A DNA stretch of 47,748 bases from positions 1 to 47,748 of the IMG/VR virus record IMGVR_UViG_3300048922_000223. One strand, 5' to 3'. This stretch comes from a virus. The notes under the pieces are model-generated. The model searched no databases and had not been told where the DNA came from. It worked only from the letters and a program-made list of their open reading frames with translations. The translations under genes and the position numbers were made by a program. Shown in pieces: positions 1,236-45,978 of this stretch; position 1 is the stretch's first letter; each line of letters opens with the position of its first letter.

Positions 1236-2456
1236 TTAATTATGTCTGTAAAGGTAAACGGGAAGACCGTCCTCCATCCTTCTCTCAGGTTCGCCCTGAA
1301 TGAGAGGGAGTGCGTAATGGAAAAATTCTTCTGTAACATCAGCTCCGTTGCTACAAATCCATTCGTCAGGGAATAATTTTTCCTTGTTACATACTTCGTT
1401 TACGTCTACTGTAACGCATTCCATACCATAAGGCGAATGAGCGGTGCGATTGAAAGCAATCATCATTCCTGTAATGCCTTTTAACGCAGCGTTTACGCCT
1501 TCAATCCCTGCTTGTACGGATTCTTCAATGTCAATTGCGGATGCCAGCATGCCACTGCACCTTTGATTAACATTCAACTCTATGGAACGTACCTTAACGC
1601 CAAAGCGATCTCTTACAAAGTTCTCCAACATCTTTCCGCTTCCTGTTAGCATTTTGTGACCGAACGTATCTAAGCGGGCTTCATCTGCATATTCACAAAT
1701 AAACTTGCCATGGGAATCTGAGAGGCCTTCGGATACACAGATAATAACAGAATTTCTTTTTGCTAAGGCGGATTCAACGTCGGAAGCAAATTGTTCAAAA
1801 TCAAAATCTGATTCAGGAAGGTAAATAAGTACAGGGTTATCACCTACAAATTTTCTTGCCAAGGCACTGGCTGCAGTTAGCCAACCTGCATGGCGACCCA
1901 TTAATTCTATGATAGTAATTGATTTCTGCTGATAAACAGAAGCATCTAATACGATTTCCCGAACTGTATTCGCTACATATTTGGCAGCGCTGCCATAACC
2001 CGGAGTATGGTCGGTGAGTACCAAATCATTATCAATTGTTTTTGGAATTCCAATGAAACGAATATCACTCTGATGATGGGCGGCATAACGGGAAAGTTTG
2101 CTTACTGTATCCATGGAATCATTTCCGCCAATGTAAAAGAAGTATCCAATTTCCATAGTACGAAATTTCTCAAATAAAGCAGGGTAAAATGGAGAAGAGA
2201 GATCATCCGGAAGCTTATAGCGGCATGACCCCAAATAAGCAGCAGGAGTTAATTTAAGCAGCTCCAATTCTTCTGCGGTTAAGTCCTTTGATAAATCCAT
2301 ATAGTTACCGGACATGAAACCTTCGATGCCGTTAATCATGCCATAAACCCGGTCGATTTCTTCGTGAGCCATTCCTTCTTTAATGATTCCGTAAAGGCTT
2401 GCGTTGATTACAGCGGTGGGACCGCCGGACTGTCCTACGATTGCATTTTTCTTCAT
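1236..2456 (-). CDS. pfp: 6-phosphofructokinase, PPi-dependent type
   Basis: 406 residues. It phosphorylates fructose 6-phosphate to fructose 1,6-bisphosphate in glycolysis, in the cytosol. The N-terminal glycine-rich phosphate loop GQSGGPTAVINAS is at residues 8-20. The donor-site motif reads GGNDS (110-114) and the catalytic motif PKTIDND (138-144). In this family Asp and Lys at the positions that are Gly104 and Gly124 in E. coli PfkA mark PPi-dependent enzymes. Here those positions are D113 and K139, so pyrophosphate is the expected donor. The residue before D113 is Asn, where Asp is usual. The ATG has GGAGG 8 nt upstream. The gene is monocistronic, with a strong terminator. It is host DNA flanking the prophage. 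Confidence 0.93.
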   Translation of the reverse strand: MKKNAIVGQSGGPTAVINASLYGIIKEGMAHEEIDRVYGMINGIEGFMSGNYMDLSKDLTAEELELLKLTPAAYLGSCRYKLPDDLSSPFYPALFEKFRTMEIGYFFYIGGNDSMDTVSKLSRYAAHHQSDIRFIGIPKTIDNDLVLTDHTPGYGSAAKYVANTVREIVLDASVYQQKSITIIELMGRHAGWLTAASALARKFVGDNPVLIYLPESDFDFEQFASDVESALAKRNSVIICVSEGLSDSHGKFICEYADEARLDTFGHKMLTGSGKMLENFVRDRFGVKVRSIELNVNQRCSGMLASAIDIEESVQAGIEGVNAALKGITGMMIAFNRTAHSPYGMECVTVDVNEVCNKEKLFPDEWICSNGADVTEEFFHYALPLIQGEPERRMEDGLPVYLYRHN

Positions 2457-2928: not shown

Positions 2929-2972
2929 TATGCAACAAACTATACAACACTATACAACAAACTATACAACAC
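2929..2972. repeat. Two tandem 22-bp direct repeats beside the integrase (arm-type site candidate)
   Basis: The 22-bp unit 2929-2950 is repeated at 2951-2972 with a single mismatch (position 2932 against 2954). Each unit itself contains two related CAACA(C/A) blocks. The repeats touch the 3' end of the integrase gene, where phage attachment DNA normally lies. Tyrosine integrases bind short direct repeats as arm-type sites, so this is the best candidate for the integrase arm sites. The crossover core itself is not identified. Confidence 0.6.
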
Positions 2973-4228
2973 TAAAAAATCCGTTCTATTTCTGTCCTAA
3001 ACCATTCTATATCCATGTGAGTGTAGACCCTGTCTGTTAGATCTTTTATGGAATGTCCCATAATTTTTTTTCGAGCATAATCATCAACTCCATATTCCTT
3101 TGCATATGTTGAGAAAGTATGCCTTCCGTCATGGAGGACATGTCCTAACAATCCAAGTTCAGCTTCTTTCTTTAATAAAGAATTCCTGAATGAATTTTCA
3201 ATGTATCTATATGAACCGTGGAATTTTTCTGTCCTTCCAAATAACATAGGCCGCCCTATGTTAATGGCTTCATGGTAATACTTCTGAATTATAGGTAATA
3301 CCTTCGAATGAATAGGGACTATTCTATTGATACCATTTTCAGTTTTAATACCACCAGTATACGTTCTGTTTTCAAGATCGATATTGTTAACAGAGAGAGT
3401 AATGACTTCGCCTGGTCGCCAACCAGAATAGCATTGAACAATAGTCATGTCGATGAAAATGTTGCCACTATTACTCCAAAGAAGTGCTAACTCATCTTTA
3501 GTATATGGCCTGCCTGCTCGGGATTTCATAGCTGCCTCTTTGCTTAGGTTTGTAGTAAAGGTTCTGGCGTAGTTCTGAGTAACTATTCGTCTGAAGACTG
3601 CGTAATCAAAAAGAAGATTATATAAAGTTTTAATATTTCCTTTTATTATGGCGGTTGCACTAATTTTTTTACCAGCCTCGTTCCCCTTTTCGCCTATTTT
3701 ATAGGCATTTTTAATGTGATCCTCAATCATTGCTGGCATAAAATTCACAACTTTTATGTTATACACCGGTCCGCAGTACTTAAATGTAGCGTCGTATGCT
3801 TTACGTCTATTATCATCTAATTTATTATCTTCAATATATTTGGGTAGCCATGCATCGTATAATTCTTTTACAGTCAAGTCGTTTTTCAAATCATAGGGAT
3901 TCTCTTGAAAACTGAGTATAGCTTTATATGCATCTATTTTATCAGAGTAGGAACCAAGAAAGTCGTATGTATAATAGCTTTTTCCTGTATATTCATTAAG
4001 CGTGAGCTTGGGATTAACCATTGCAGCAAATGGTTGACGACGGTTTCCAGTAAGTGATTTTATTGTGCCATACCCATTTGGCAAACGCATTAATGATTGT
4101 TGGTCTGATTTTTTTGGTCTACCTCTTTTTCCTTTCTCTGGGAGAAGAAGAGGGTACCCACAATGGGGACAGGTAGTTGCCTGTGTACTGATTTGTCCTT
4201 GGCATTCTGAACATTTTATTAATGACAT
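2972..4228 (-). CDS. int: Phage tyrosine integrase with N-terminal zinc ribbon
   Basis: 418 residues from the chosen ATG at 4228, which has AAGGAT 8 nt upstream; a longer frame begins 13 codons earlier but lacks a good site. Residues 6-23 hold a CxxC...CxxC zinc ribbon followed by a basic stretch (KGKRGRPKK). A SAM-like core-binding domain follows, then the catalytic domain with R271 (GWRPGE), H366 and R369 (HDGRH), H392 (MGHS) and the nucleophile Y402 (VYTHMD). It integrates and, with an excisionase, excises the prophage. It is first in the leftward strand from the left end and sits next to the 22-bp repeats, the classical position for an integrase. Confidence 0.93.
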   Translation of the reverse strand: MSLIKCSECQGQISTQATTCPHCGYPLLLPEKGKRGRPKKSDQQSLMRLPNGYGTIKSLTGNRRQPFAAMVNPKLTLNEYTGKSYYTYDFLGSYSDKIDAYKAILSFQENPYDLKNDLTVKELYDAWLPKYIEDNKLDDNRRKAYDATFKYCGPVYNIKVVNFMPAMIEDHIKNAYKIGEKGNEAGKKISATAIIKGNIKTLYNLLFDYAVFRRIVTQNYARTFTTNLSKEAAMKSRAGRPYTKDELALLWSNSGNIFIDMTIVQCYSGWRPGEVITLSVNNIDLENRTYTGGIKTENGINRIVPIHSKVLPIIQKYYHEAINIGRPMLFGRTEKFHGSYRYIENSFRNSLLKKEAELGLLGHVLHDGRHTFSTYAKEYGVDDYARKKIMGHSIKDLTDRVYTHMDIEWFRTEIERIF

Positions 4229-4275
4229 AAAACCATCCTTTCTTAAAAAAGAGTATAAAAATAACACTATACCGG

Positions 4276-4426: not shown

Positions 4427-5086
4427 TTAGTAGGAATTATATCCATGTAAATGGTAATGCTCTGAACGTTCGAATATAAAATTGTCACCCATAATGTAAC
4501 GATAAGTATTAAAAAACAACAAATCACTTTCTTGATCTTCAGGTAAGTTATCTATTTGAACGCATAAATCATTATTCTTATTGGGAAAAAACCAATCACG
4601 AATACTCATATGTAATTTTTGGTTATATTGAAAATCAGTTGTATTGAAATCTTCTAATATTTTGTTTGCTGCCATACATGATACAAAAAATGTGTTATAT
4701 ATATCTTTAACTGTATTTCGCCCTAAATGCCAAATGAGCGATCTTGGGGCCAGTATGTGACTTGCAAAATAATCTGCTTCTTTTTCATTATTTATGCAAT
4801 CGCCAGTATGTTTGAGTACAATGTGCCCAACTTCATGCATTAAAGAGAACCGTTGGCGTTCTTCATGAGGGAATTTATCATTGAAAAAAATTGTCCCTTG
4901 AATAGTGAAAGCATCATTACTTATTTGTAGGCATTTTTTAATCTTTGCTTCTGGTAGATCAGAATATTTGTATAATGATATACCAAGACCAGTAATGATT
5001 TTAAAGCAGTCAATAGGAAAAGTTTTTACATCACACCTTTTATACACATCTAATGTTTTCTCAATTATTCCTGTTTGCTCCAACAA
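4427..5086 (-). CDS. immA: ImmA/IrrE-family metallopeptidase (anti-repressor protease)
   Basis: 219 residues with a TTG start and AAGGAG about 10 nt upstream. The zinc motif HEVGH is at residues 84-88 (H84, E85, H88) within LMHEVGHIVLKH, and a downstream EADYFA-type helix supplies the third ligand, as in the family. Family members cleave the partner phage repressor and trigger induction. It lies 9 nt after the repressor gene in the same leftward operon, the same arrangement as immR-immA of ICEBs1. The last ~70 residues are not recognisable and may sense an inducing signal. Confidence 0.88.
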   Translation of the reverse strand: MLEQTGIIEKTLDVYKRCDVKTFPIDCFKIITGLGISLYKYSDLPEAKIKKCLQISNDAFTIQGTIFFNDKFPHEERQRFSLMHEVGHIVLKHTGDCINNEKEADYFASHILAPRSLIWHLGRNTVKDIYNTFFVSCMAANKILEDFNTTDFQYNQKLHMSIRDWFFPNKNNDLCVQIDNLPEDQESDLLFFNTYRYIMGDNFIFERSEHYHLHGYNSY

Positions 5087-5095
5087 AATTTCTCC

Positions 5096-5410
5096 TTAAT
5101 CATCGGACAGAAGAGTTCTTATTATGTCCTGTTTTTGTTCGAGCGTGAGCTTCTTACCGTTTCTGGCAATGAGACTTTGGATGTCATCGTATGTAGGCTC
5201 ATATATAGTTTTACGACTACTATCATCAAAATCATCTAATGATAATCCTAATACGCGAGCTATAGCTTTTAAGGTTTCCAATTTAGGATCTTTTGTAGCT
5301 CCGCTTAAAATTTTATTTAAAGTACCAATAGGAACACCAGACTTCTCTGATAATTCTTCTGTAGTCATTCCTAATTTCTTTTTGTATTCATTAATTCTTT
5401 CTAATCCCAA
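5096..5410 (-). CDS. Xre-family repressor (CI/ImmR-like)
   Basis: 104 residues. The start is a TTG at 5410 with GGAGGTG 7 nt upstream. The helix-turn-helix spans about residues 15-37 (MTTEELSEKSGVPIGTLNKI), followed by the usual fifth helix and the LSLDDF motif. A C-terminal extension of about 35 charged residues could be the target of the ImmA-like protease. It is the first gene of the leftward lysogeny operon. Repeated TTTACCGTTAA-type half-sites in the adjoining control region overlap both divergent promoters and are the probable binding sites. Confidence 0.9.
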   Translation of the reverse strand: MGLERINEYKKKLGMTTEELSEKSGVPIGTLNKILSGATKDPKLETLKAIARVLGLSLDDFDDSSRKTIYEPTYDDIQSLIARNGKKLTLEQKQDIIRTLLSDD

Positions 5411-23880: not shown

Positions 23881-24552
23881 CTAATCACTTTTATTTCGCT
23901 GATCTTGTTTTACAGCATTGGTTGAGATGACTTTTCCTATAAGTTGATTGCGATTTTCCCGATTTATATACCATTCATTCATTAGTAGTTCAACAAGATT
24001 AATTAGTGTAGTGGCCTCGCCTGAATCAATATCGACGATTACATCAGTGTTTTTTTCCATATGAGCACCAATATTTCCTAGCTCACGTAAAGAATCAATG
24101 GCGCTCCATAGGTCAGGATCGACTTTATCTTTAAGTGCGGTGATTTCATGATTTAAGTTCTTTAATTTTATATCCCAATAGTCATGAATCATCCCTTGTA
24201 GACAACGACGAGACAATGTTGCAGAAGCTTTAGGACTTAGATTTACAATTGCATACGCTTCTTCATAATCGTTACGAATTTTTATTGGTATGTATTCTGG
24301 AAACTGTTTTGCTAATGATCTTGGAAGTATGTTAACAGATATGTGTTTAGTTTCGTCTCCTCTGCCTTCGCAGTGAATTATGTGCTTGTTGCATTGGGGA
24401 CATTTATAAAAATCGATTCTTAATGCAGATTCCTCATAGTCTGGATACTGAGTAAGACAATCATCTTCATTAAATGAAGGATGGCGAGATTGATGGGTTT
24501 CTCTTGTTATTGCAAATACTGTTGAGCAAAATGGACAGTTAAAACTTGACAT
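23881..24552 (-). CDS. DUF4145-domain protein with N-terminal zinc ribbon
   Basis: 223 residues from the ATG at 24552 (GGAG 8 nt upstream; a GTG two codons earlier is possible). CPFC at residues ~6-9 and CPQC near residue 52 form a zinc ribbon. The C-terminal helical domain has KASATLSRRCLQGMIHDY and LRELGNIGAHMEKN, the DUF4145 signature. DUF4145 often accompanies restriction or defence genes. It is leftward between two rightward accessory cassettes, so it is an independent accessory gene. Function unknown. Confidence 0.8.
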   Translation of the reverse strand: MSSFNCPFCSTVFAITRETHQSRHPSFNEDDCLTQYPDYEESALRIDFYKCPQCNKHIIHCEGRGDETKHISVNILPRSLAKQFPEYIPIKIRNDYEEAYAIVNLSPKASATLSRRCLQGMIHDYWDIKLKNLNHEITALKDKVDPDLWSAIDSLRELGNIGAHMEKNTDVIVDIDSGEATTLINLVELLMNEWYINRENRNQLIGKVISTNAVKQDQRNKSD

Positions 24553-24739
24553 ATACACATTTCTCCTTTAGTTATTTGGTTTTATTTTATCATGTTATTA
24601 AAAAGTAGCAAGGTTAAATATTATCAATTTATTGAAGATTATCAGTATGAATAGGATTTTGATGAGGAATGATAACCAACGTTTTTTGAATGTGCAAACT
24701 AAAAAACTGAGATTTGAAAGATATATTGTCCTTTGATAA

Positions 24740-24768
24740 TTGAATATTGATAGTTGGTATGTTAAAAT
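24740..24768 (+). promoter_or_regulatory. Promoter of accessory cassette B
   Basis: TTGAAT (24740-24745), 17-nt spacer, TAAAAT (24763-24768). The spacer holds ATTGATAGTTGGT. The 16-mer ACCAACTATCAATATT, its exact reverse complement, is the left arm of the terminator of the same gene. Confidence 0.75.
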
Positions 24769-24797
24769 GTTCAAGAAAGATGAAAGGTGATTTTGAT

Positions 24798-25535
24798 ATG
24801 GTATATACAGAAGAACAGTGCAAAAGACTATTAGAAGAGTGTGGAATGGAAAATACTATACGAAAACCCACAAAGAAGTTATATCAATATAGAAATGGGA
24901 AGAGTGAAGATGGGCATATATATGACATTGATAACTTATATGATAATAAAGTTTGGGCATCAGCAGCATGCTATTTTAATGATCCATATGATTGTAGCCT
25001 TTTACTTAATACAGATATTTATGGAGAAGAAGATAGAAATTATTTACAAGAATGCATGAAAACAACATCAAGAAGTATTGCGAAATATTGCTTTGTTTCA
25101 TGTTTTAGTGAAAAAAACAAATCTCTATGTATGTGGGCATATTACGCTAATAATCATCAAGGCTTTTGCGTAGAGTATGAAAAAAAATCACTAAAAAATG
25201 TATTTCCGATTAATTATAATAATGAAATTTTACCTTTTAATTGTAATTTGTCTTTTGATAAACTAGTTTTTAAAAGTGCATTAAATAAATCAGAAGATTG
25301 GGTTCATGAAAGAGAATGGAGAATGTTATCATATAGAAAAGTAACAGAAGTCCCCCAAAAAGGCATACTATTAGAGTCATGTAAGCCAACAAAAATCTAT
25401 CTGGGTTGTAAAATTAATAATAATTTAGAAGAAGCCATTAGTCAGTATTGTAAAAAAGAAAAAGTGGACTTAGACAGAATGGAAATGAGTACAACTAGAT
25501 ATGAATTGATTCCCCAAAAAGTATTTAAATTTTAA
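24798..25535 (+). CDS. DUF2971-domain protein (cassette B)
   Basis: 245 residues from the ATG at 24798 (AAAGGTG upstream). The DUF2971 pattern is clear: LYQYRNGK, WASAACYFNDPYDCS, FVSCFSEKNKSLCMWAYYANNHQGFCVEYE, and VHEREWRMLSY. The family is common in defence islands and prophages, but no activity is established. AT-rich compared with the early operon, with its own promoter and terminator: a typical moron. Confidence 0.85.
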   Translation: MVYTEEQCKRLLEECGMENTIRKPTKKLYQYRNGKSEDGHIYDIDNLYDNKVWASAACYFNDPYDCSLLLNTDIYGEEDRNYLQECMKTTSRSIAKYCFVSCFSEKNKSLCMWAYYANNHQGFCVEYEKKSLKNVFPINYNNEILPFNCNLSFDKLVFKSALNKSEDWVHEREWRMLSYRKVTEVPQKGILLESCKPTKIYLGCKINNNLEEAISQYCKKEKVDLDRMEMSTTRYELIPQKVFKF

Positions 25536-29705: not shown

Positions 29706-30743
29706 ATGAATGGACAAACTGTTAAGGCTCAGATAATTAATGATATAATTGTTGCCATGGCAGAGCATGTGGCTAAGGACGTTTTAGAGATTCTTCATCA
29801 GACAATTATAAAGGAATTTGTCAATGTCAATATGGAAGAAATAACAACCCTCCCTGCAGAGTATCAGAATGACACAGATACGAAAAATAAATATATTATT
29901 CAACTTTTTATCGTAAAGAAGAAAATTAAGGGCAACACAAAAAAAGATTATCTTAATGCTGTTAAGCGATTGATCACTCTCATTGATAAGCCATTGGACA
30001 AGATAGAGGAATCGGATATCAGTTATTATCTGTCATGGTATGAGAAGCGAAATATTAATACTAAAGGCAAGAAGAATCAGGCTGTCACTGTGAATAATGA
30101 AAGACGCTTTCTGTCAGCGTTCTTTACGTGGCTGCGAAAGGAAAAATTAATTAGCGACAATCCAGTAGAAGCTACGGATCCGCTGAAAGCGATTAGGAAG
30201 CCTATTGATTATTTCAAACCAGAAGAAATGGCAAAGATGAGGGACGCATGCAAAAATCTCCGAGAACGGGCATTAATTGAAGTATTGCGAAGCACTGGTG
30301 CTAGAGTGGGGGAACTGGTGGAAATTACCTTGGACCAGATAGATTGGAGCACCGGGGATATTATAATTCAAGGAGAAAAGAATGATAGGTATGAACCTAT
30401 ATTCTTAGATGATGATGCTCGTTATTATTACCGGAAGTATTTGGATTCAAGGAACGATGACAGCCCGTTTATGTTTCCTCAATGCAAAGCTCCTCATGAT
30501 AAAATGTCAACTTCGGGGGTCCGGAGCGTTTTAAGAACCATTGGTAATCGAGCAAAATTAAAATGCCGGGTTTATCCTCATAAATTGCGTAAAACTTTGG
30601 GAATGAACCTTAAAAATAAAGGAGTTGATATTGGCACCATTCAGGAAATTTTGAGGCATGCCAGTCCTTCAGTAACAGCTATCTATTATGCCCAATCAAC
30701 ACCGAGTACTTTAAGAAGTGTGAGAGAGAGGTGTTCTGCATGA
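29706..30743 (+). CDS. Tyrosine recombinase (second, XerD-like)
   Basis: 345 residues, AAAGGAG upstream. An N-terminal extension of ~60 residues precedes a SAM-like domain (TKKDYLNAVKRLITLIDKPL). The catalytic domain has RSTGARVGELVEI (Arg I), a lysine in IIQGEKNDR, HKLR in YPHKLRKTLGMNLKNKGVDIG, RHASPSVTAIYYAQS with the usual GH replaced by RH, and the nucleophilic Tyr. It is distinct from the left-end integrase and placed between early and late genes. It may resolve phage DNA multimers, invert a segment or act as a regulator. The role is unproven. Confidence 0.9.
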   Translation: MNGQTVKAQIINDIIVAMAEHVAKDVLEILHQTIIKEFVNVNMEEITTLPAEYQNDTDTKNKYIIQLFIVKKKIKGNTKKDYLNAVKRLITLIDKPLDKIEESDISYYLSWYEKRNINTKGKKNQAVTVNNERRFLSAFFTWLRKEKLISDNPVEATDPLKAIRKPIDYFKPEEMAKMRDACKNLRERALIEVLRSTGARVGELVEITLDQIDWSTGDIIIQGEKNDRYEPIFLDDDARYYYRKYLDSRNDDSPFMFPQCKAPHDKMSTSGVRSVLRTIGNRAKLKCRVYPHKLRKTLGMNLKNKGVDIGTIQEILRHASPSVTAIYYAQSTPSTLRSVRERCSA

Positions 30744-31099
30744 TGGAAAAAAAGACAAGAGATCAATTGAAAAATCTGGTTGCACTCAATGCTGCCATTA
30801 CTGAGGCGGATGAAGAAATTCAGTTGGTACAGAAAGAGATGGCTTCCCATGGTTACGATAAGAGATATATGATTAACTTGAATGAACTGAAGCAGAAAGT
30901 TGTATATTACCGGTATCAGAAAGTCAAAATCTGTACAAATCTGTATGAAAAGATTGAGATCTTGGATGATGAACAGGAAAAGCGCCTGTTGAAATACCGG
31001 TACATAAGAGGATATCGATGGGAAGACATAGCTGATAAAATGGGATACAGTGTCAGACAGGTGTATAATATACATAATAAAGCTATGAATATTATTTAA
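30740..31099 (+). CDS. ArpU/sigma-like phage transcriptional regulator
   Basis: 119 residues, ATGA overlap with the recombinase stop, GAGAGGTG upstream. The N-terminal half is a coiled coil. The C-terminal ~45 residues are a region-4-like helix-turn-helix (RLLKYRYIRGYRWEDIADKMGYSVRQVYNIHNKAMNII), as in ArpU/RinA-type late activators. Candidate activator of the packaging and structural genes. Confidence 0.8.
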   Translation: MMEKKTRDQLKNLVALNAAITEADEEIQLVQKEMASHGYDKRYMINLNELKQKVVYYRYQKVKICTNLYEKIEILDDEQEKRLLKYRYIRGYRWEDIADKMGYSVRQVYNIHNKAMNII

Positions 31100-31109
31100 A
31101 ATTTGAAAT

Positions 31110-31143
31110 ATATCAAGCCGTATAGATAGATACGGCTTGATAT
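31110..31143. terminator. Bidirectional hairpin between convergent genes
   Basis: ATATCAAGCCGTA (31110-31122) and its perfect complement (31131-31143), 13 bp with an 8-nt loop, separate the rightward regulator gene from the leftward reverse transcriptase gene. A/T-rich flanks on both sides suit a shared terminator, although the T runs are short. Confidence 0.65.
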
Positions 31144-31153
31144 TAATTTAAGA

Positions 31154-32701
31154 TTAATAAAGCTCTAATTCCTCAGCAAAGCGTAAATCTAAGTATTCAT
31201 GAATAGTCATTTTTACATCTTCTATTTGTTGTATAAGAGCATTGTGTGCACATAAATTATCTTTATAAAATGTTGAATACGTAGTTCTTCTGTTAATATT
31301 TGTGAGAGACTCTCCGGGATATGATAAACATTTCTTGGGCAAAAGGTAGTTATCGATACTGCTATCAATATCTGCTAATAAATCTGGAGAATATAATATC
31401 AAATGATAATTTTGGAACCAATAACATTCATCAGTAAAATCTTTTAATATATTGATATCTTGCGGAGTAAATATATTGTCTTGTAAATAATAGGAAATAA
31501 GTATTTGATTACACGAATTTAGGACTTGTTCTCTATTATTTTCTATGATATCACTGAAATTCAAAACTTTAATAGAATAGTAAAGATAAAGTTGTACATC
31601 GTTAAAAGGTTTTTTTAAAGATTCGCTATAGCGAATACTAAAAAATTTCTTGACTTTTAATTTATCAAAATTACTCATGTCTACGAATTTGTCTATACAA
31701 TATAATAGGGATTCAGGAGATGTTCTAAATATATAACAAAGTTGATGATAATCATACTCTTTCATAATAAATTTATTCATGTCTAATGTCCTGAAATATC
31801 GACCTTTAAAAAAATTATTTATAAAAATTTTCTTTTGTCTTTCATCTCCAAGTTTAGAAGAACGATAAACAAGTTGATTAATGAAAACCAATTTATTAAA
31901 ATCGCTATCTGAACTATAATGTGTATTGCAGTGATAATTTATTTTTTTCCAAAACCTTGTAATTAGATTATTTGAATTATAAGATTCGTAATCCCATATT
32001 TCAATTTTATTTTCATTACGATCTAAATCAAATTCTTCAAGTATATTATCAAAAATTTCAATTATTTTATCATTGTCATGTTTGTTACAAAAGAAATAGA
32101 AGTCATCTGAAAAATAAAAGAATTCACATGATAAATTATTTGAAATAATTTCAGATTCGATTCTGGAACTTATTTTTGCTAAATGTTGTTCTGCAAAGTA
32201 GAGTGATAAATAATTACCCATGATTAATCCATTTGTTGCACCAAAATTTAGATTTGTTATGTATCGATCACTTAGTGATTGGAAGTCAAGATAATGTGTA
32301 TATAATCTTCCATAAAATTCTTTTATATCTAATTTAATTAAATTATCATATATACACAGATTGTTAAAATCCGTTTCTAACTGTTCATCATATGCTCCAA
32401 TTTCAAAATCTCCAGTATTTAACTTAACTGAGAGCCTTTTATGATTTGGATCCAGTTCTTGAGGATTATCAAAGTTAGGAAATAATTTGAAATGTTCATA
32501 ACCACAAACTAATGCAATTATGTTAGGTAATTTAAGAGTTCTAAATATATCCCCGGATTTTTGTATACGAAATTTGATTGGGGTTGTCCAGCATGTGTGA
32601 TCAATATCAAGTGTGGACATATTTGTAGTAAATATTAAATTATCAATATAAATAAAATGTTTTATAGGATTTTTGAAATTATATATATTATTATAATTCA
32701 T
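31154..32701 (-). CDS. Abi-type reverse transcriptase (AbiA/AbiK/Abi-P2-like)
   Basis: 515 residues. Reverse-transcriptase motifs in order: an N-terminal block TTPIKFRIQKSG...RTLKLPN; motif A LDIKEFYGRLYTH (D125); motif B GATNGLIMGNYLSLYFAE (154-171); motif C FSDDFYFF (D199, D200). The ~300-residue C-terminal part is helical and without a recognised nuclease, as in AbiA, AbiK and Abi-P2. The xxDIxxFYxxxYTH form of motif A is diagnostic of this class. These proteins act in abortive phage defence, several by protein-primed or untemplated DNA synthesis. Very AT-rich, single gene, opposite to its neighbours: a moron. It could not be assigned to one named subgroup. Confidence 0.87.
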   Translation of the reverse strand: MNYNNIYNFKNPIKHFIYIDNLIFTTNMSTLDIDHTCWTTPIKFRIQKSGDIFRTLKLPNIIALVCGYEHFKLFPNFDNPQELDPNHKRLSVKLNTGDFEIGAYDEQLETDFNNLCIYDNLIKLDIKEFYGRLYTHYLDFQSLSDRYITNLNFGATNGLIMGNYLSLYFAEQHLAKISSRIESEIISNNLSCEFFYFSDDFYFFCNKHDNDKIIEIFDNILEEFDLDRNENKIEIWDYESYNSNNLITRFWKKINYHCNTHYSSDSDFNKLVFINQLVYRSSKLGDERQKKIFINNFFKGRYFRTLDMNKFIMKEYDYHQLCYIFRTSPESLLYCIDKFVDMSNFDKLKVKKFFSIRYSESLKKPFNDVQLYLYYSIKVLNFSDIIENNREQVLNSCNQILISYYLQDNIFTPQDINILKDFTDECYWFQNYHLILYSPDLLADIDSSIDNYLLPKKCLSYPGESLTNINRRTTYSTFYKDNLCAHNALIQQIEDVKMTIHEYLDLRFAEELELY

Positions 32702-32748
32702 TGCACACTCACACCCTTTCTATTTTGCAATTTTACCACTTTATAAAA

Positions 32749-32777
32749 AGTATACAACGTATAATGCCAAGAGTAAA
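32749..32777 (-). promoter_or_regulatory. Promoter of the reverse transcriptase gene
   Basis: On the leftward strand TTTACT (complement of 32772-32777), a 17-nt spacer and TATACT (complement of 32749-32754). The start codon is about 50 nt downstream, after an AAAGGGTG site, leaving no room for an associated upstream RNA of the DRT2 or DRT9 kind in this leader. Confidence 0.6.
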
Positions 32778-32845
32778 TAATAATATTACATAGAATTACA
32801 GCCATCTATTGTGATATGCTCCAAGTTATAAAGGAGGCTTATTGT

Positions 32846-33598
32846 ATGAACAGTTTTATAAGTTGGATTGGTGGAAAAAAGATATTACGAAAGCAGATAC
32901 TTGAGCAGTTCCCGGATCAGGATTCCTATAACAGGTATATTGAGGTGTTTGGTGGAGCTGGTTGGGTATTATTCTCTAAAGACAAACATGCTTCTTTGGA
33001 AGTATTTAATGATGTGAACGGAGAATTGATTAATCTATACCGAGTGGTAAAATATCACCCAGAGTCGCTGCAGAATGAATTAGAATGGCTTCTTATGTCC
33101 CGGGAACAGTTTTTTGATGAGTTAAACAGAAACACCAGAGGAATGACAGATATCCAGCGGGCTGCCCGGTTCTTCTGCCTGATCAGGGAGAGTTTTGGGA
33201 CAGACTGCAGATCGTTTGGAGTAAGTTCCAGGGACATACATAAGGCAGTTGATTATCTGAAAGACGTTTCGGACCGGCTCAATAAAGTGGTGATAGAGAA
33301 CCAGGACTTTGAACGGCTGATAAAAACATACGACAGACCAGACACTTTATTCTATCTGGACCCTCCATATTACGATGCAGAGAAGTATTATCCAGACAGG
33401 TTCAATCCAGAGGATCATGAAAGATTGAAAAATTGCTTGGGTAGTATAAAGGGAAAGTTTATCTTGTCCTATAATGATTGCCAGCAGATACGGGATTTGT
33501 ATGAGGGATATACTATTATTGAAGTCGATAGAATGGATAACTTAGCGAATAAGGCTGAGAGCAGGAGATACAAAGAACTCCTAATTAAAAACTTTTGA
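32846..33598 (+). CDS. D12-class DNA adenine N6-methyltransferase (Dam-like)
   Basis: 250 residues from the ATG at 32846 (AAAGGAGG upstream). Motif I region is FISWIGGKKILRKQIL and FGGAGWVLFSK. The catalytic motif IV is LDPPYY (D172-P-P-Y175). The target-recognition region lies between. It methylates adenine, probably to shield phage DNA from restriction or to regulate expression. No partner endonuclease is beside it. GC content is higher than the flanking accessory genes, so it seems to belong to the phage backbone. Confidence 0.9.
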   Translation: MNSFISWIGGKKILRKQILEQFPDQDSYNRYIEVFGGAGWVLFSKDKHASLEVFNDVNGELINLYRVVKYHPESLQNELEWLLMSREQFFDELNRNTRGMTDIQRAARFFCLIRESFGTDCRSFGVSSRDIHKAVDYLKDVSDRLNKVVIENQDFERLIKTYDRPDTLFYLDPPYYDAEKYYPDRFNPEDHERLKNCLGSIKGKFILSYNDCQQIRDLYEGYTIIEVDRMDNLANKAESRRYKELLIKNF

Positions 33599-33696: not shown

Positions 33697-34542
33697 ATGG
33701 CAAACATATTATTTTGGAATGCCGGGATAAACAAATGCAAAGACGAGGGTAAGGTTAAATTGGATCATATTGATAATTGCATAATTGATTTAATCACTGA
33801 AAATAATTGTGATTTTATCATTTTGGCCGAATATCAAAATAATCTTGATGATCTATGCAATAAATTATCTCTTCATGGGAGAGACTTTAAAATTGGTCTT
33901 ACTATTCAAGAAACAAGGAATAAATTAATTTATGATACTAGATTTAATGTTGAGATTATAAGAGACAATCCCTATTTTTTTATTTATAATATAAGCTTTT
34001 TAGAATGGGAATGTTTACTTTCAGGAGTTCATCTGCCGAGTAAAATACGTGCGGATGATAATGATCAAGAGCTTGTTGGTTTTCAATTTAAGAAGTTGAT
34101 TGAGGAGTCTGAAAAAGAGGTTGGACATAATAAAATAATTATTGTAGGGGATTTTAACGCTAATCCTTATGAAAATATTATGACAAAGGCCAATATGTTT
34201 CATGCAATACCTAATGCAAGTATCGTTGAAAACAAAAAGAGCCGGATAGCATTATCTGGAACATGGCATATGTTTTATAATCCCATGTGGAATTTTCTTG
34301 GAGATAAAAGTGAGCCTAACGGAACAATAAAATATGATGCAGGAGGAGCAATTAATTTATATTGGAACTTGTTTGATCAATCTTTATTTAGTGCCGATAT
34401 GATTAAATATTTGGAAGATGATTCTTTACAAATAATTACGAGTGTTAAAGATTACTCATTATTAGATAAGAGTGGATCTCCAAATAAAAAATTGTACAGT
34501 GATCATTTACCCATTTTTTTTAAAATCAAGGAGGAAATATAA
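33697..34542 (+). CDS. Endonuclease/exonuclease/phosphatase (EEP) family protein
   Basis: 281 residues, AGAGGAATGG upstream. All family motifs are present: FWNAG with N8, LAEYQ with E45, a GVHLPSK His, IVGDFNAN at 149-156 (D152, N154), FDQS, and SDHLPIFF (S268-D269-H270). It is a metal-dependent phosphodiesterase acting on DNA, RNA, lipid or a nucleotide. AT-rich with an upstream TATAAT (about 33660). It shares its last base with the following gene, so the two work as a pair. Candidate defence effector with the next gene as partner; inferred. Confidence 0.85.
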   Translation: MANILFWNAGINKCKDEGKVKLDHIDNCIIDLITENNCDFIILAEYQNNLDDLCNKLSLHGRDFKIGLTIQETRNKLIYDTRFNVEIIRDNPYFFIYNISFLEWECLLSGVHLPSKIRADDNDQELVGFQFKKLIEESEKEVGHNKIIIVGDFNANPYENIMTKANMFHAIPNASIVENKKSRIALSGTWHMFYNPMWNFLGDKSEPNGTIKYDAGGAINLYWNLFDQSLFSADMIKYLEDDSLQIITSVKDYSLLDKSGSPNKKLYSDHLPIFFKIKEEI

Positions 34543-35051
34543 TGGATAGTATGTGGAACATAGACTGCGAAATACAAGATATTAAGCCAGCAAATGAACT
34601 AATCCAAATTCAGTGTGAGAAATTGGCTGAGATAACGAACAATAAAGTATTAGCGAGAATAAGTGAATATAAAGAGGAGGATTTTAGATCACATACAATT
34701 GTACCTGAACTCAAAGGTTTTCACTTTTTAGATGAAAAAGTGATAGATCCTCAAGATTCCCTCGGAGAAAAAGGTGAGAATGATGAATTTGTATACGAAT
34801 TTTATATTACATCTAAAAAAACACCTAAATATAAATATAGAATATGTTTTATTTATTTTTCAATTACGCTATATCCAGTAGGGCTGACCATTGATAAATC
34901 CATTGCAGACAGTGCTGGTTTGGAATATACAGAATTAGATATTGAAGCTGAAGATGACTTTGAACAAATATTAAGCGAAATATTAGGCTGTAAAAAAGTG
35001 GCAAAGATTATTCAAAACTTGTTGAGTATTAACAAAGAGTCAATATTTTAG
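34542..35051 (+). CDS. Partner of the EEP nuclease, unknown family
   Basis: 169 residues, ATG overlapping the previous TAA by one base and with AAGGAGG upstream, so translation is coupled. The protein is acidic, without membrane segments or cysteine motifs. Recognisable only as mixed alpha/beta (YRICFIYFSITLYPVGLTIDKSIADSAG). Strict coupling suggests an inhibitor, sensor or subunit of the EEP protein. No known family is recognised. Confidence 0.7.
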   Translation: MDSMWNIDCEIQDIKPANELIQIQCEKLAEITNNKVLARISEYKEEDFRSHTIVPELKGFHFLDEKVIDPQDSLGEKGENDEFVYEFYITSKKTPKYKYRICFIYFSITLYPVGLTIDKSIADSAGLEYTELDIEAEDDFEQILSEILGCKKVAKIIQNLLSINKESIF

Positions 35052-37980: not shown

Positions 37981-38559
37981 TTATATCAAGAATAGATTTT
38001 TTTGAATAGCTTCTTCAATTTGCTTCGGCTGAATGCCAATGTATCGTTGAGTAACAGCAGCGCTTGAGTGTTGCAGGAGTTGCCGAACGAGCTCAATATT
38101 GTATCCATTGTCATTGTAAAGGTTAGTCGCATAAAATTTGCGGAAACTGTGGGAGCCGATGTTTTCAAGACCTAGAGCTTCACAAACCAGTTTTAAATGC
38201 TTTTGAATTGCTCTTTCGCTGATATCAAACAGTTTCGCACGACTGGATATGTTATTATCAAGCGCATATTGCAAGATGTAATTATACAGTTCGACCGGCA
38301 CAGTAAAGTTTCTTTCCTTTTTGGTTTTCCCCTCTGTGATGTTAAGGCGATAACGTTCGCCATCTTTGATAATGTCACAGGCATGGAGTTGCATCACATC
38401 GCCAATACGTAAGCCTAGGTTGGCTTCCAGTACCAAGGCGGTAGCAATTCGGTTGTTCGGCTTACAGACTGTCCCGTCCTTGGCCATGAATCCAGATCGG
38501 ATAGTGTTAATGATAAGCTGATATGTTTCACGGGTTAGTGTCACGGTTTTTTTATTCAT
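37981..38559 (-). CDS. Short tyrosine recombinase (third)
   Basis: 192 residues from the ATG at 38559, AGGAGG upstream. It contains only the catalytic domain: LRIGDVMQL (Arg I), KTKKERNFTVP (Lys), HSFRKFYATNL (HxxR), LLQHSSAAVTQRYI with the Tyr nucleophile. The usual N-terminal SAM-like DNA-binding domain is missing, a form known for small Xer-like phage and plasmid recombinases. It lies opposite to the surrounding genes. A dif-like 28-bp site and GTTCGT boxes lie just upstream. Role: site-specific resolution or inversion, inferred. Confidence 0.88.
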   Translation of the reverse strand: MNKKTVTLTRETYQLIINTIRSGFMAKDGTVCKPNNRIATALVLEANLGLRIGDVMQLHACDIIKDGERYRLNITEGKTKKERNFTVPVELYNYILQYALDNNISSRAKLFDISERAIQKHLKLVCEALGLENIGSHSFRKFYATNLYNDNGYNIELVRQLLQHSSAAVTQRYIGIQPKQIEEAIQKNLFLI

Positions 38560-38575
38560 TCTGTACTCCTCCTTG

Positions 38576-38690
38576 AAAGTTCGTAAAATACTTCTGAAAA
38601 GTTCGTATAATCTATTAACACCATCATACCACACGACAAAGCCATTGTAAATACGTGATAGTTCGTTTTTGAACTGTTTTACGAACTTGA
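38576..38690. repeat. Four GTTCGT boxes with a dif-like core site
   Basis: AAAGTTCGTA occurs as direct repeats at 38576 and 38598, 22 bp apart. A further pair is inverted: AGTTCGTTTTT (38660-38670), a 6-bp centre GAACTG (38671-38676) and TTTTACGAACT (38677-38687). The 11-6-11 layout is that of a tyrosine-recombinase core site. The direct pair overlaps the probable promoter and leader of the recombinase gene, so the boxes may also autoregulate it. Confidence 0.6.
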
Positions 38691-41576: not shown

Positions 41577-41578
41577 CT

Positions 41579-41651
41579 GTACCTTTAGCGCAGCGGTCAG
41601 CGCACCCGGCTCATAATTGGGCGATTCTGGGTTCGAATCCCAGAAGGTACA
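41579..41651 (+). tRNA. tRNA with CAT anticodon (Met, or Ile2)
   Basis: Complete cloverleaf: acceptor GTACCTT/AAGGTAC with discriminator A at 41651, D arm GCGC/GCGC, anticodon arm CCCGG-CTCATAA-TTGGG (two GU pairs), T arm CTGGG-TTCGAAT-CCCAG. CCA is not encoded. The anticodon is CAT. Elongator Met is likeliest, but a lysidine-modified Ile tRNA cannot be excluded by eye. It is immediately downstream of the structured RNA and close to rtcB, suggesting a link to tRNA repair. Confidence 0.95.
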
Positions 41652-41667
41652 TTATGCACATTGGAAA

Positions 41668-42751: not shown

Positions 42752-43006
42752 ATGAGCATTAGTAAAGTAATTGAATCGATAGAGCATGACGCATTCAGCC
42801 GTGTCATGAATCCTCCCGAAGATGGATTTAACGGGCAGGCAGATATAAGAACAAATGCCCAGGGCCAGAAATGGGTATACTGCCCTTGGTGTGATAAGAA
42901 ACACTTTCCTTTAAATCAGGAGGCTGTAATTAAGGATTTCCATTATCAATGCCGAAATAGTAAATGTAAAAGGATTTTTATTGTAAATACGGAGGGGCAA
43001 AAATGA
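42752..43006 (+). CDS. Zinc-ribbon protein upstream of rtcB
   Basis: 84 residues, ATGAGGTG upstream. CPWC (about residues 44-47) and CRNSKC (about 67-72) form a zinc ribbon: VYCPWCDKKHFPLN...YQCRNSKCKRIF. ATGA overlap with rtcB implies coupled translation and possibly an RNA-binding partner of RtcB. Confidence 0.7.
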   Translation: MSISKVIESIEHDAFSRVMNPPEDGFNGQADIRTNAQGQKWVYCPWCDKKHFPLNQEAVIKDFHYQCRNSKCKRIFIVNTEGQK

Positions 43007-44199
43007 GTGACTTAAAAATCTTTACTGAAAATATAGAGCCTGAGGCATTGAATCAGATTTATATGCTGATTAAACAGCCGGCATTTGCTGAATGCAAAGT
43101 GAGGATAATGCCTGATGTCCATGCAGGAAAAGGCTGTGTAATTGGCTTTACTGCAGACTTGGGGGATAAGGTGATTCCAAACATCGTGGGTGTGGATATT
43201 GGCTGTGGAATGCTGACTGTAGGCCTGGGTAATATCAATATTGACTATGAAAAATTGGATTCGGTGATAAGGGGAAATATTCCTTCTGGTCGTAATGTTC
43301 GGAAAGAAGAAATTCCGTTCAAGAATATTGAAGAACTGTATTGCAGATCCGAACTTAATAATATCAGTTGGCTACGCTGCAGCATGGGAACACTGGGCGG
43401 AGGAAATCACTTCATAGAAGTCGATGAGGATTCTGATGGAAACAAATATTTGATTATTCATACCGGGAGCCGTAATTTGGGCAAGCAGGTAGCAGAAATA
43501 TATCAGCAAGTCGCCATAGACAGTATGCAAGGGGCCGGTAAACTGGAACAAGCTATTCAGGATTTAATTCAGGAATATAAGACTACTGGCCGGGCAAAGG
43601 AAATTCAACCTGGTATTCGAGAATTGAAGCGTAAATTTCAGCCTGATAAACTGAACATTCCAAAAGAACTTTGCTATTTGACAGGAGAAAATAGGGAACG
43701 TTACTTACATGACATGAAAATATGTCAGAGTTTTGCTGGAACTAATCGTGAATGGATTGCTTCTATCATTTGTCAGAAGATGGGATGGGAATATTCTAGG
43801 GAAAAGTCATTTCAAACGATTCATAACTATATCGACCATGATACGAACATTGTGCGAAAGGGTGCGATCTCAGCCAGAATGGAAGAGTTGCTGTTAATAC
43901 CAATCAATATGCGTGATGGTTGCATTATTGGGAGAGGAAAAGGGAATGACGACTGGAACAGCTCCGCCCCTCATGGAGCTGGCCGGATAATGAGCCGGTC
44001 CAAGGCGAAAGAAAATGTCTCACTGGAAGAGTTTGAAACCTCTATGGCTGGCATCTTTACAACTTCTGTAAACAGCTCAACTATTGATGAATCTCCTATG
44101 GTTTATAAGCCAATGGAAGAAATAATCCAGAACATAGAGCAGACCGTTGATATTGAAAAAATCATAAAGCCAGTATATAATTTTAAAGCAAGTGAATAA
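43003..44199 (+). CDS. rtcB: RtcB-family RNA ligase
   Basis: 398 residues, near the usual length. All metal and GMP-binding motifs are seen: MPDVHAGKG (D38, H40), GVDIGCGM (D65, C68), GTLGGGNHFIEV, HTGSRNLG, and the guanylylated His in SSAPHGAGRIMSRS (H324). It joins 2',3'-cyclic phosphate or 3'-phosphate ends to 5'-OH ends, as produced by anticodon nucleases. It sits with a zinc-ribbon gene directly after a tRNA, a structured RNA and an accessory gene. A role in repairing phage or host tRNA cut by host defence nucleases is likely but unproven. Confidence 0.95.
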   Translation: MSDLKIFTENIEPEALNQIYMLIKQPAFAECKVRIMPDVHAGKGCVIGFTADLGDKVIPNIVGVDIGCGMLTVGLGNINIDYEKLDSVIRGNIPSGRNVRKEEIPFKNIEELYCRSELNNISWLRCSMGTLGGGNHFIEVDEDSDGNKYLIIHTGSRNLGKQVAEIYQQVAIDSMQGAGKLEQAIQDLIQEYKTTGRAKEIQPGIRELKRKFQPDKLNIPKELCYLTGENRERYLHDMKICQSFAGTNREWIASIICQKMGWEYSREKSFQTIHNYIDHDTNIVRKGAISARMEELLLIPINMRDGCIIGRGKGNDDWNSSAPHGAGRIMSRSKAKENVSLEEFETSMAGIFTTSVNSSTIDESPMVYKPMEEIIQNIEQTVDIEKIIKPVYNFKASE

Positions 44200-44262: not shown

Positions 44263-45978
44263 ATGGATTTCCATGAACATCGGGAAATAATAAAAAAATT
44301 AAAGCGGCAGATTGAATCGCCGCCTTCTTACGACATTCTGAACATTCTGTTATCAGAACTCCAATATACAATGCAAGATAATCCGGAATTACCTGTTGAG
44401 GACCGGGATTTCATCATGACCTATTCCGGGTTTATCAAGAAATGGGCTGTCACAAGGTTTGTCCAGACAATGGATACCAGATGGGATGATTTGTACTGGA
44501 AAACTTTGCTCTTTGAAGCTCCATTCCTGTTTGAATCGTTTTTGATTTACATGGAGAAGGACCGGAAGCCAGATAAGCGTTTTTATCTTCCACGGCGTAA
44601 CACATTAAAAATTGTTGCCGATGATCTTCAGGATCTGGAAAATAACAAACTTGACTTCTATGGACTGTCTATGCCAAGCCGTGTTGGTAAGAGTACGATT
44701 TGCATTTTCTTCATGGCATGGATAATCGGGAAGCGCCCTAACAGCCATAATGCCATGGGCGGTCACTCCGGAAAACTGGCAAAAGGCTTCTATGGAGAAG
44801 CAATAAACCTTATAAACACAAAGGAATATACCTTTGCGGAGATATTCCCAGATTCTAAGTTACAAAAGACAAGTGCAGAGGATTTTGAAATCAACCTGGA
44901 CGAGCCTGATCGCTTTGCCAGTCTAACATGTCGTGGTATTGATGGCACCTGGACGGGAGCTGTTGATATATCTGCAGATGGTTACCTTTATGTAGATGAC
45001 CTTATTCGTGACCGCGAGCATTCTTTAAACCCAATCCGTATGGAAAATACCTATCAGGAATACCTAAACAAGATGGTTGACCGTAAAAACGATGGGGCCA
45101 GGGAACTAATGGTGGGTACTAGGTGGTCCATTTTAGATTGTTTGGGAAGAATCGAAAAAGAAAATTCTCATAACCCACGATATAGGTTTAGAAAAATACC
45201 AGCATTAAACGAAGATGATGAATCAAACTTTCAGTACGAAATAAAAGGATTTTCAACAAAATATTATCGTGACATGAAGGATAGGTTAGACAAAAACGAA
45301 TGGGAAGCAAAATACCAACAACGGCCATTTATTCGTGAAGGATTGTTGTTCCCAGAAGATGAACTTCGATTCTTTTATGGAATATTACCGGAGAGTGGAT
45401 TTATTCGTGTTGTGACGGCGGGTGATGTGGCCTGGGGCGGCGGAGATAGTTTCTCTATGCCTATTGGATTTGAATATGAGAACGGTGATGTCTATATTGT
45501 AGACTGGGTATTTAACAAAGGGGTAAAAGAGATTACCATACCAATTGTCGAAGGAAAAATCGTAGGAAATAAAATTCAGCAGATAAATTTTGAAGCAAAC
45601 AACGGTGGTGAGATGTACGCCAAATATGTGAATGATGATTTAATTCGTCAAGGATATAAATGTTCTATAACATCAACTAAAGCCCCAGCAACTATGGCAA
45701 AGCTGGCAAAAATTATTCAGTATTCTGGCGATATTAAGAGACGGTTTATTTTCCTTGCACCAAACTCCTTGATAAAAAGACATGCACAGAATGATCCAAC
45801 AGATATAAAGAGATATATGCGTACAAGGGAATACGATGATGCAATGGAAGAGCTTACGTTATTCGTTCAAATTGGCAAGAATGAGCATGATGACAGCCCG
45901 GACAGCTTGAGTCAGCTGGAAAGATTCTTAGAAGGTGGTTTTACTGCAGAAGTGAAGCCTATGAAACGACCATTTTAG
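44263..45978 (+). CDS. terL: Terminase large subunit
   Basis: 571 residues, GGAAGGAGG upstream. The ATPase has Walker A MPSRVGKST (137-145) and Walker B YLYVDDLIRD (D245, D246). The C-terminal nuclease has VVTAGDVAWGGGDSFSMPIGF with the first Asp of the RNase-H-like site, FEANNGGEMYAKYV and a late DDSPDSLSQLERF Asp. The motor packages phage DNA and cuts it. It is the marker for the packaging module, and portal and capsid genes would normally follow directly. Instead a homing-like gene, a regulator and an IS element come next. Confidence 0.95.
   Translation: MDFHEHREIIKKLKRQIESPPSYDILNILLSELQYTMQDNPELPVEDRDFIMTYSGFIKKWAVTRFVQTMDTRWDDLYWKTLLFEAPFLFESFLIYMEKDRKPDKRFYLPRRNTLKIVADDLQDLENNKLDFYGLSMPSRVGKSTICIFFMAWIIGKRPNSHNAMGGHSGKLAKGFYGEAINLINTKEYTFAEIFPDSKLQKTSAEDFEINLDEPDRFASLTCRGIDGTWTGAVDISADGYLYVDDLIRDREHSLNPIRMENTYQEYLNKMVDRKNDGARELMVGTRWSILDCLGRIEKENSHNPRYRFRKIPALNEDDESNFQYEIKGFSTKYYRDMKDRLDKNEWEAKYQQRPFIREGLLFPEDELRFFYGILPESGFIRVVTAGDVAWGGGDSFSMPIGFEYENGDVYIVDWVFNKGVKEITIPIVEGKIVGNKIQQINFEANNGGEMYAKYVNDDLIRQGYKCSITSTKAPATMAKLAKIIQYSGDIKRRFIFLAPNSLIKRHAQNDPTDIKRYMRTREYDDAMEELTLFVQIGKNEHDDSPDSLSQLERFLEGGFTAEVKPMKRPF

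Follow-up and report, generated by a model that had tools for sequence, protein, structure and literature searches.

A UG31-type class 1 UG/Abi reverse transcriptase encoded in a prophage cargo site

Introduction

The class 1 UG/Abi reverse transcriptases (RTs) that have been studied synthesize DNA without a nucleic-acid template (PMC13174585). Such synthesis has been reported for AbiA (PMC11077055) and, as template-independent synthesis, for AbiK and Abi-P2 (PMC9508834), and the product of DRT4 is random ssDNA (PMC13213688). Triggers have been described for two of these enzymes: phage Sak proteins for AbiK (PMC9508834) and ORF55 for DRT4 (PMC13213688). Abi-P2 is found in a variable region of prophages (PMC9508834), and anti-phage hotspots exist in P2/P4 prophages and also at Vibrio and Bacillus sites (Rousset et al. 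2022, PMC9122126). Searches of the open literature turned up neither activity data for any UG31 protein nor an experimental study of the group.

We analyzed an IMG/VR virus record of 47,748 bases from a gut-type bacterial host; this whole stretch of DNA is called the window. The gene under study is the following:

31154-32701, minus strand: UG31-type class 1 UG/Abi RT, 515 aa, ATG start, intact open reading frame; fingers/palm at about residues 1-240 and helical repeat domain at about residues 246-514, according to the AlphaFold model

Sequence and family of the reverse transcriptase

An intact open reading frame lies exactly where the original prediction, made from the sequence, had placed an RT of the abortive-infection class on the minus strand. 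Motif A is LDIKEFYGRLYTH and contains D125, motif B is GATNGLIMGNYLSLYFAE, and motif C is YFSDDFYFFCN, with D199 and D200; all three are present as claimed, and the numbering given for D199/D200 was right. In the family alignment, which consists of the window protein and 24 relatives (two of which are truncated at contig ends), the catalytic triad D125/D199/D200 is invariant in 25 of 25 members, the window protein included, and so is the whole YFSDDFYFFCN block. K48 and R54 of the fingers hairpin, equivalent to K90 and R96 of AbiK, are also invariant. Two further relatives (L007 and L024) have broken reading frames. The gene had been described as AT-rich, and its GC content is 25.2% vs 37.1% for the window.

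Searches of Pfam, NCBIfam, and PHROGs with the RT protein assigned no family (nothing was significant in PHROGs), and a PDB search with the single sequence gave no match; a profile search of PDB sequences matched DRT6 (9wy8) and Drt3b (9z6y) over the palm. The best PADLOC model was RT_UG31 (PDLC03770), with 290 bits and an E-value of 7.5e-87 over residues 1-489 of the protein and 3-451 of the model. The next models were far lower, with 58 bits for Drt6 and 50 bits for AbiK. Membership in the AbiK sequence family was rejected on that score and on the separate clade formed in the tree. A chance open reading frame is ruled out by the full-length family match and by 26 relatives at 34-68% identity. 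The subgroup, which the original prediction had left blank, can now be given as RT_UG31, where "UG31" is the label of a PADLOC model and not a proven clade. The protein is a further member of a known, experimentally uncharacterized class 1 group, and is not categorically new.

Predicted structure and class

The AlphaFold model built from the family alignment (pLDDT 92.5, pTM 0.91) predicts a fingers/palm domain followed by an all-helical C-terminal half, with helices from about residue 246 to 514 at high confidence, in agreement with the long helical C-terminal part anticipated from the sequence. When the model was compared with the PDB by Foldseek, the first 20 matches were all AbiK, DRT4, UG15, Abi-P2, DRT6, or AbiA, over nearly the whole chain, with E-values of 6e-12 for AbiK and 1e-11 for DRT4 (TM 0.64/0.66). 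This bears out the AbiA/AbiK/Abi-P2-type class of the original prediction. The model has a C-terminal helical repeat (alphaRep) domain instead of a thumb and a full-chain likeness to AbiK, DRT4, and Abi-P2. Since these full-chain matches come far ahead of those to other RT types, the predicted fold places the enzyme in class 1 of the UG/Abi RTs.

DRT9, group II intron, retron, and DGR enzymes trailed at E-values of 1e-5 to 1e-3 and TM of about 0.3, against about 1e-12 and 0.6 for the Abi enzymes. The palm motifs are common to both kinds of protein, but these differences, and the lack of an Rfam match for intron or retron RNA, leave virtually no chance that the protein belongs to the retron, group II intron, or DGR RTs. 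A placement among retrons or group II introns, which had been named beforehand as the contrary outcome, did not occur. Both the retron and the class 2 (ncRNA-templated) readings were ruled out on the fold.

Compared with individual enzymes, the protein shares with AbiK of Lactococcus (PDB 7r06, 7r07, 7z0z) the whole-chain fold, the catalytic triad, the Lys/Arg pair of the fingers, and the single-gene arrangement, but the identity is 17%. DRT4/UG15 (PDB 9vdo, 9l9s) and DRT6 (9wy8) are likewise single-gene class 1 RTs and gave the best TM values, 0.60-0.66, whereas their identity is 14-16% and the PADLOC Drt4 and Drt6 models score 32-58 bits vs 290 for UG31. Abi-P2 (PDB 7r08) has the same fold and is also a prophage-carried class 1 RT in a variable region; however, it comes from P2-like E. 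coli phages, is 15% identical, and its priming residue Y61 is not identifiable in the window protein.

Relatives and phylogeny

The 26 relatives were obtained by a scan of representative genomes and occur only in Firmicutes or metagenome bins. Scans of viral contigs, by the protein sequence and by the family alignment, revealed no second virus-borne copy, and phage and plasmid collections contained no copy of the RT. RT_UG31 was also the best model for the four relatives scanned with it (4/4; 278-405 bits). In 200 sampled genomes of Lachnospiraceae, the family of L001, 94 matched this model at 1e-3; about nine reached 1e-39, including at least two outside the window clade (L032 and L033), and the others were far lower. 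The RT_UG31 scores of L051 (450 bits), L032 (397), and L033 (356) are above that of the window protein, with which they share about 25-29% identity over 100-130 residues only.

In a maximum-likelihood tree of 34 sequences, the window family formed a fully supported clade whose stem is very long, at 4.05 changes per column. L051 paired with L061 (support 100/100), for which RT_UG30 was the best among the models tried on it. L032 and L033 joined the window clade weakly (48/65), the deeper forks were weak, and the proteins recognized by the RT_UG31 model did not come out as one clade. Because L051 groups with L061, away from the window family, and the deeper forks are weak, the model appears from these sequences to lump several deep lineages, with the window family as one deep clade among them. 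RT_UG31 is the best, whole-length match for the window protein, but it also takes L051 and L032, which have about 27% identity over about 130 aa and lie elsewhere in the tree. This tree gave the window family a clade of its own, and the branching among class 1 groups was not settled by it.

Candidate priming residues

By the alignment of K48/R54 with AbiK K90/R96, Tyr44 of AbiK falls near window residues 1-3, a stretch without a conserved tyrosine (Y3 is Tyr in 5 of 24). The window protein starts about where the priming loop of AbiK lies, so Y44 has no clear counterpart. Neither the AbiA-type linker between palm and helical domain nor the DRT3b-type C-terminal tail (Y666 in DRT3b) has an invariant tyrosine in the family alignment, and Y515 of the window protein is not conserved. 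Other positions are better kept: position 7 holds Tyr in 23 of 24, with Phe in L020, and Y475 and Y479, both in the helical domain, do not vary. For the window family, protein priming is plausible; since the tyrosines of AbiK, AbiA, and DRT3b lack an invariant counterpart, no site is predicted with confidence from the alignment.

Genomic context of the relatives

The all-against-all comparison of the genes neighboring the 26 relatives revealed no partner gene recurring across lineages. What did recur was integrases, general elements, and, at no more than four loci, an XRE regulator accompanied by guaA and integrative-element genes. At four loci (L001, L007, L011, and L022), an XRE-type regulator gene runs up to the start of the RT gene or overlaps with it; three of these loci adjoin guaA, named from its sequence, with integrative-element genes, which suggests regulated expression in those integrative elements. 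No shared flanking RNA was found in the 400-nt flanks. Flank conservation was limited to closely related elements and therefore gave no sign of a cis-encoded ncRNA, and Rfam had no match at the RT locus. The expectation of a one-gene system fits, because distant relatives share neither a neighbor gene nor flanking DNA.

This context bears on the possibility that the protein itself sets a defined DNA product, protein-templated as in DRT3b, instead of making random DNA. DRT3b is also a class 1 enzyme with an RT plus helical repeat architecture and a weak match to the window RT, and protein-templated chemistry may be widespread among uncharacterized class 1 RTs (PMC13174585). We consider a defined product unlikely for the window RT, given that neither a DRT3a partner nor an ncRNA was found to recur near the 26 relatives and that the nearest solved folds, AbiK and DRT4, have products reported as random.

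Defence genes lay beside or within a few kb of the RT at 10 of the 26 loci, a count of neighbors that were selected by eye, with no background rate, and then tested:

L003: Gabija (GajA and GajB)
L005: Kiwa (KwaA and KwaB)
L006: DRT2
L008: type I R and PDC-S11
L012 and L014: AbiL
L013: Wadjet III (JetA/B/D)
L018 and L024: Dodola (DolA and DolB)
L020: LmuA-like

It is unlikely that paired neighbors such as GajA with GajB, KwaA with KwaB, DolA with DolB, and JetA/B/D occur there by chance.

The prophage and its cargo site

The position of the RT gene in the phage genome was established from these features:

1236-2456, minus strand: host-type phosphofructokinase
2972-4267, minus strand: integrase
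4427-5410, minus strand: ImmA-like peptidase and Cro/C1 repressor genes
44263-45978: terminase large subunit-like, by sequence appearance (no Pfam match at 0.001)

That the left end is a prophage end can be seen from the integrase, ImmA-like, and Cro/C1 genes and the host-type phosphofructokinase gene beside them; with the terminase-like gene on the other side, the RT gene is well inside the phage genome. It is oriented opposite to nearly all lytic genes. The early region encodes RecT and SSB.

Several other genes of the window were recorded. Besides the integrase at 2972-4267, there are two tyrosine-recombinase-like genes, at 29706-30743 (plus strand) and 37981-38634 (minus strand), the latter named from its sequence only. 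Two adjoining AT-rich genes at 33697-35051 (plus strand) are a possible second cargo cassette; one is weakly endonuclease/exonuclease/phosphatase-like (phrog_24714, 8.5e-9) and the other, of 169 aa, has no match. Another cargo region is likely in the AT-rich stretch that holds a DUF4145 gene (23881-24558, minus strand) and a DUF2971 gene (24747-25535, plus strand). The phage also has a tRNA-Met gene (41578-41652) and an RtcB RNA ligase gene (43003-44199), which possibly serve in RNA repair against tRNA-cutting defences.

The immediate surroundings of the RT gene are as follows:

29706-30743, plus strand: tyrosine recombinase/integrase-like, 345 aa, upstream of the arpU-like gene (Pfam Phage_integrase 5.5e-31)
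30731-31099, plus strand: left anchor, arpU-like sigma-70 region 4 protein, 122 aa (Pfam Sigma70_r4 3.3e-6)
31110-31143, no strand assigned: 14-bp perfect hairpin where the arpU-like and RT genes converge (-20.7 kcal/mol, z -4.0)
32749-32777, minus strand: predicted leftward promoter TTTACT-17-TATACT, 47 nt upstream of the RT start (consensus match and conservation)
32816-33598, plus strand: right anchor, D12-class adenine methyltransferase, 260 aa (Pfam MethyltransfD12 1.9e-34)

The RT gene is the only one on its strand between the arpU-like and D12 methyltransferase genes, and had rightly been called alone. The hairpin is a probable transcription terminator; the consensus terminator scan called none there, because it has no clear T-run. 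Standalone DRT2, DRT9, and DRT10 require a cis-encoded ncRNA, and this strong hairpin lies directly 3' of the RT gene, so that an ncRNA in or near the gene might have been overlooked. An RNA-templated, class 2-like system is nevertheless very improbable: the hairpin is terminator-like, between convergent genes, and not common to the relatives, the conservation of flanks and the Rfam search point the same way, and the fold is that of class 1 and not of DRT2/DRT9.

Ten related IMG/VR contigs (L071-L079 and L084) share both flanks with the window, at identities of 83-90% for the integrase, 65-73% for the arpU-like protein, and 86-91% for the D12 methyltransferase. The RT is absent between the anchors in 10 of 10. 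The site is empty in L072, with 29 nt between the anchors, and the others carry different genes:

L071, 7251-7940, minus strand: AT-rich membrane protein, 229 aa, INTQIEGNNNTVNIVQ-type motif, no confident family match
L076, 7869-8492, minus strand: AT-rich membrane protein, 207 aa, INTQIEGNNNTVNIVQ-type motif, no confident family match
L073: Cap4-nuclease-like protein and a second gene
L074 and L075: cytosine methyltransferase alone
L077, 9498-10580, minus strand: 360-aa protein of no known family, with a cytosine methyltransferase
L078: AbiJ_NTD3-kinase fusion with a cytosine methyltransferase
L079, 9468-9911, minus strand: 147-aa protein of no known family
L084, 1103-2188, minus strand: 361-aa protein of no known family

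Except for the methyltransferases, this cargo is on the minus strand, and it is mostly AT-rich; the membrane protein of L071 and L076 is a candidate defence gene in the same slot. A promoter-like TTTAC[T/A]-17-TATA[A/C]T precedes unrelated cargo in L071, L073, L076, L077, and L078. As one leftward promoter-like element is common to most sites and the cargo is interchangeable, the slot between the arpU-like and D12 methyltransferase genes (31100-32815 of the window) is a prophage cargo hotspot, and the moron position proposed earlier is thereby seen to be a variable cargo site. It resembles the P2/P4 prophage hotspots, in which diverse anti-phage genes occupy a small locus of high turnover flanked by two conserved phage genes, but it belongs to another phage family and has different anchors. 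Nor does it correspond to any of the Vibrio or Bacillus hotspots reported in PMC9122126.

The RT gene is prophage-carried in this record, and the XRE-type regulator at the RT start of four relatives could suit a phage gene with a role other than defence, in lysogeny control, replication, or superinfection exclusion by another route. Such a role is quite improbable, given that ten prophages of otherwise similar make-up lack the gene, one of them having an empty site, and that many relatives adjoin defence systems and not phage genes.

Discussion

Our results are best explained, and with fair probability, by a prophage-carried, single-gene abortive-infection DNA polymerase that makes untemplated DNA. 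The family, the fold, the intact catalytic residues, the lack of a conserved partner or flanking RNA, the defence neighborhoods, and the cargo hotspot are shown here and support this explanation. The steps of its action are drawn by analogy with AbiK, DRT4, and Abi-P2. In the lysogen, the leftward promoter of the RT gene would probably drive its expression, against the direction of the lytic genes. Infection by another phage would be the trigger, maybe by way of a phage protein that anneals or binds ssDNA, as in AbiK and DRT4. The RT domain would be braced by the helical repeat domain that replaces the thumb, probably in a trimer or hexamer, and would polymerize ssDNA without a nucleic-acid template. 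The build-up of ssDNA, the loss of dNTPs, or the capture of phage or host ssDNA-binding and annealing proteins may then abort the infection, and the host population of the resident prophage would be protected. RecT and SSB are also encoded by the home prophage, which raises the question of how it avoids self-triggering.

A more far-reaching interpretation, which we hold to be possible but rather doubtful, is that the window family forms a deep class 1 antiviral lineage of its own, with a novel way of starting DNA synthesis (from Y7, from Y475/Y479, or with no protein primer), maybe with a defined product, in a previously undescribed defence hotspot of Firmicutes prophages.

The interest of the locus lies in a group for which no experimental study was found, in the priming site, and in the hotspot. 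The window family offers a compact, single-gene, naturally mobile representative of UG31, together with a high-confidence structure model and an alignment of 24 relatives. The slot, with its standing promoter-like element, is a source of more candidate defence genes in gut-type Firmicutes prophages.
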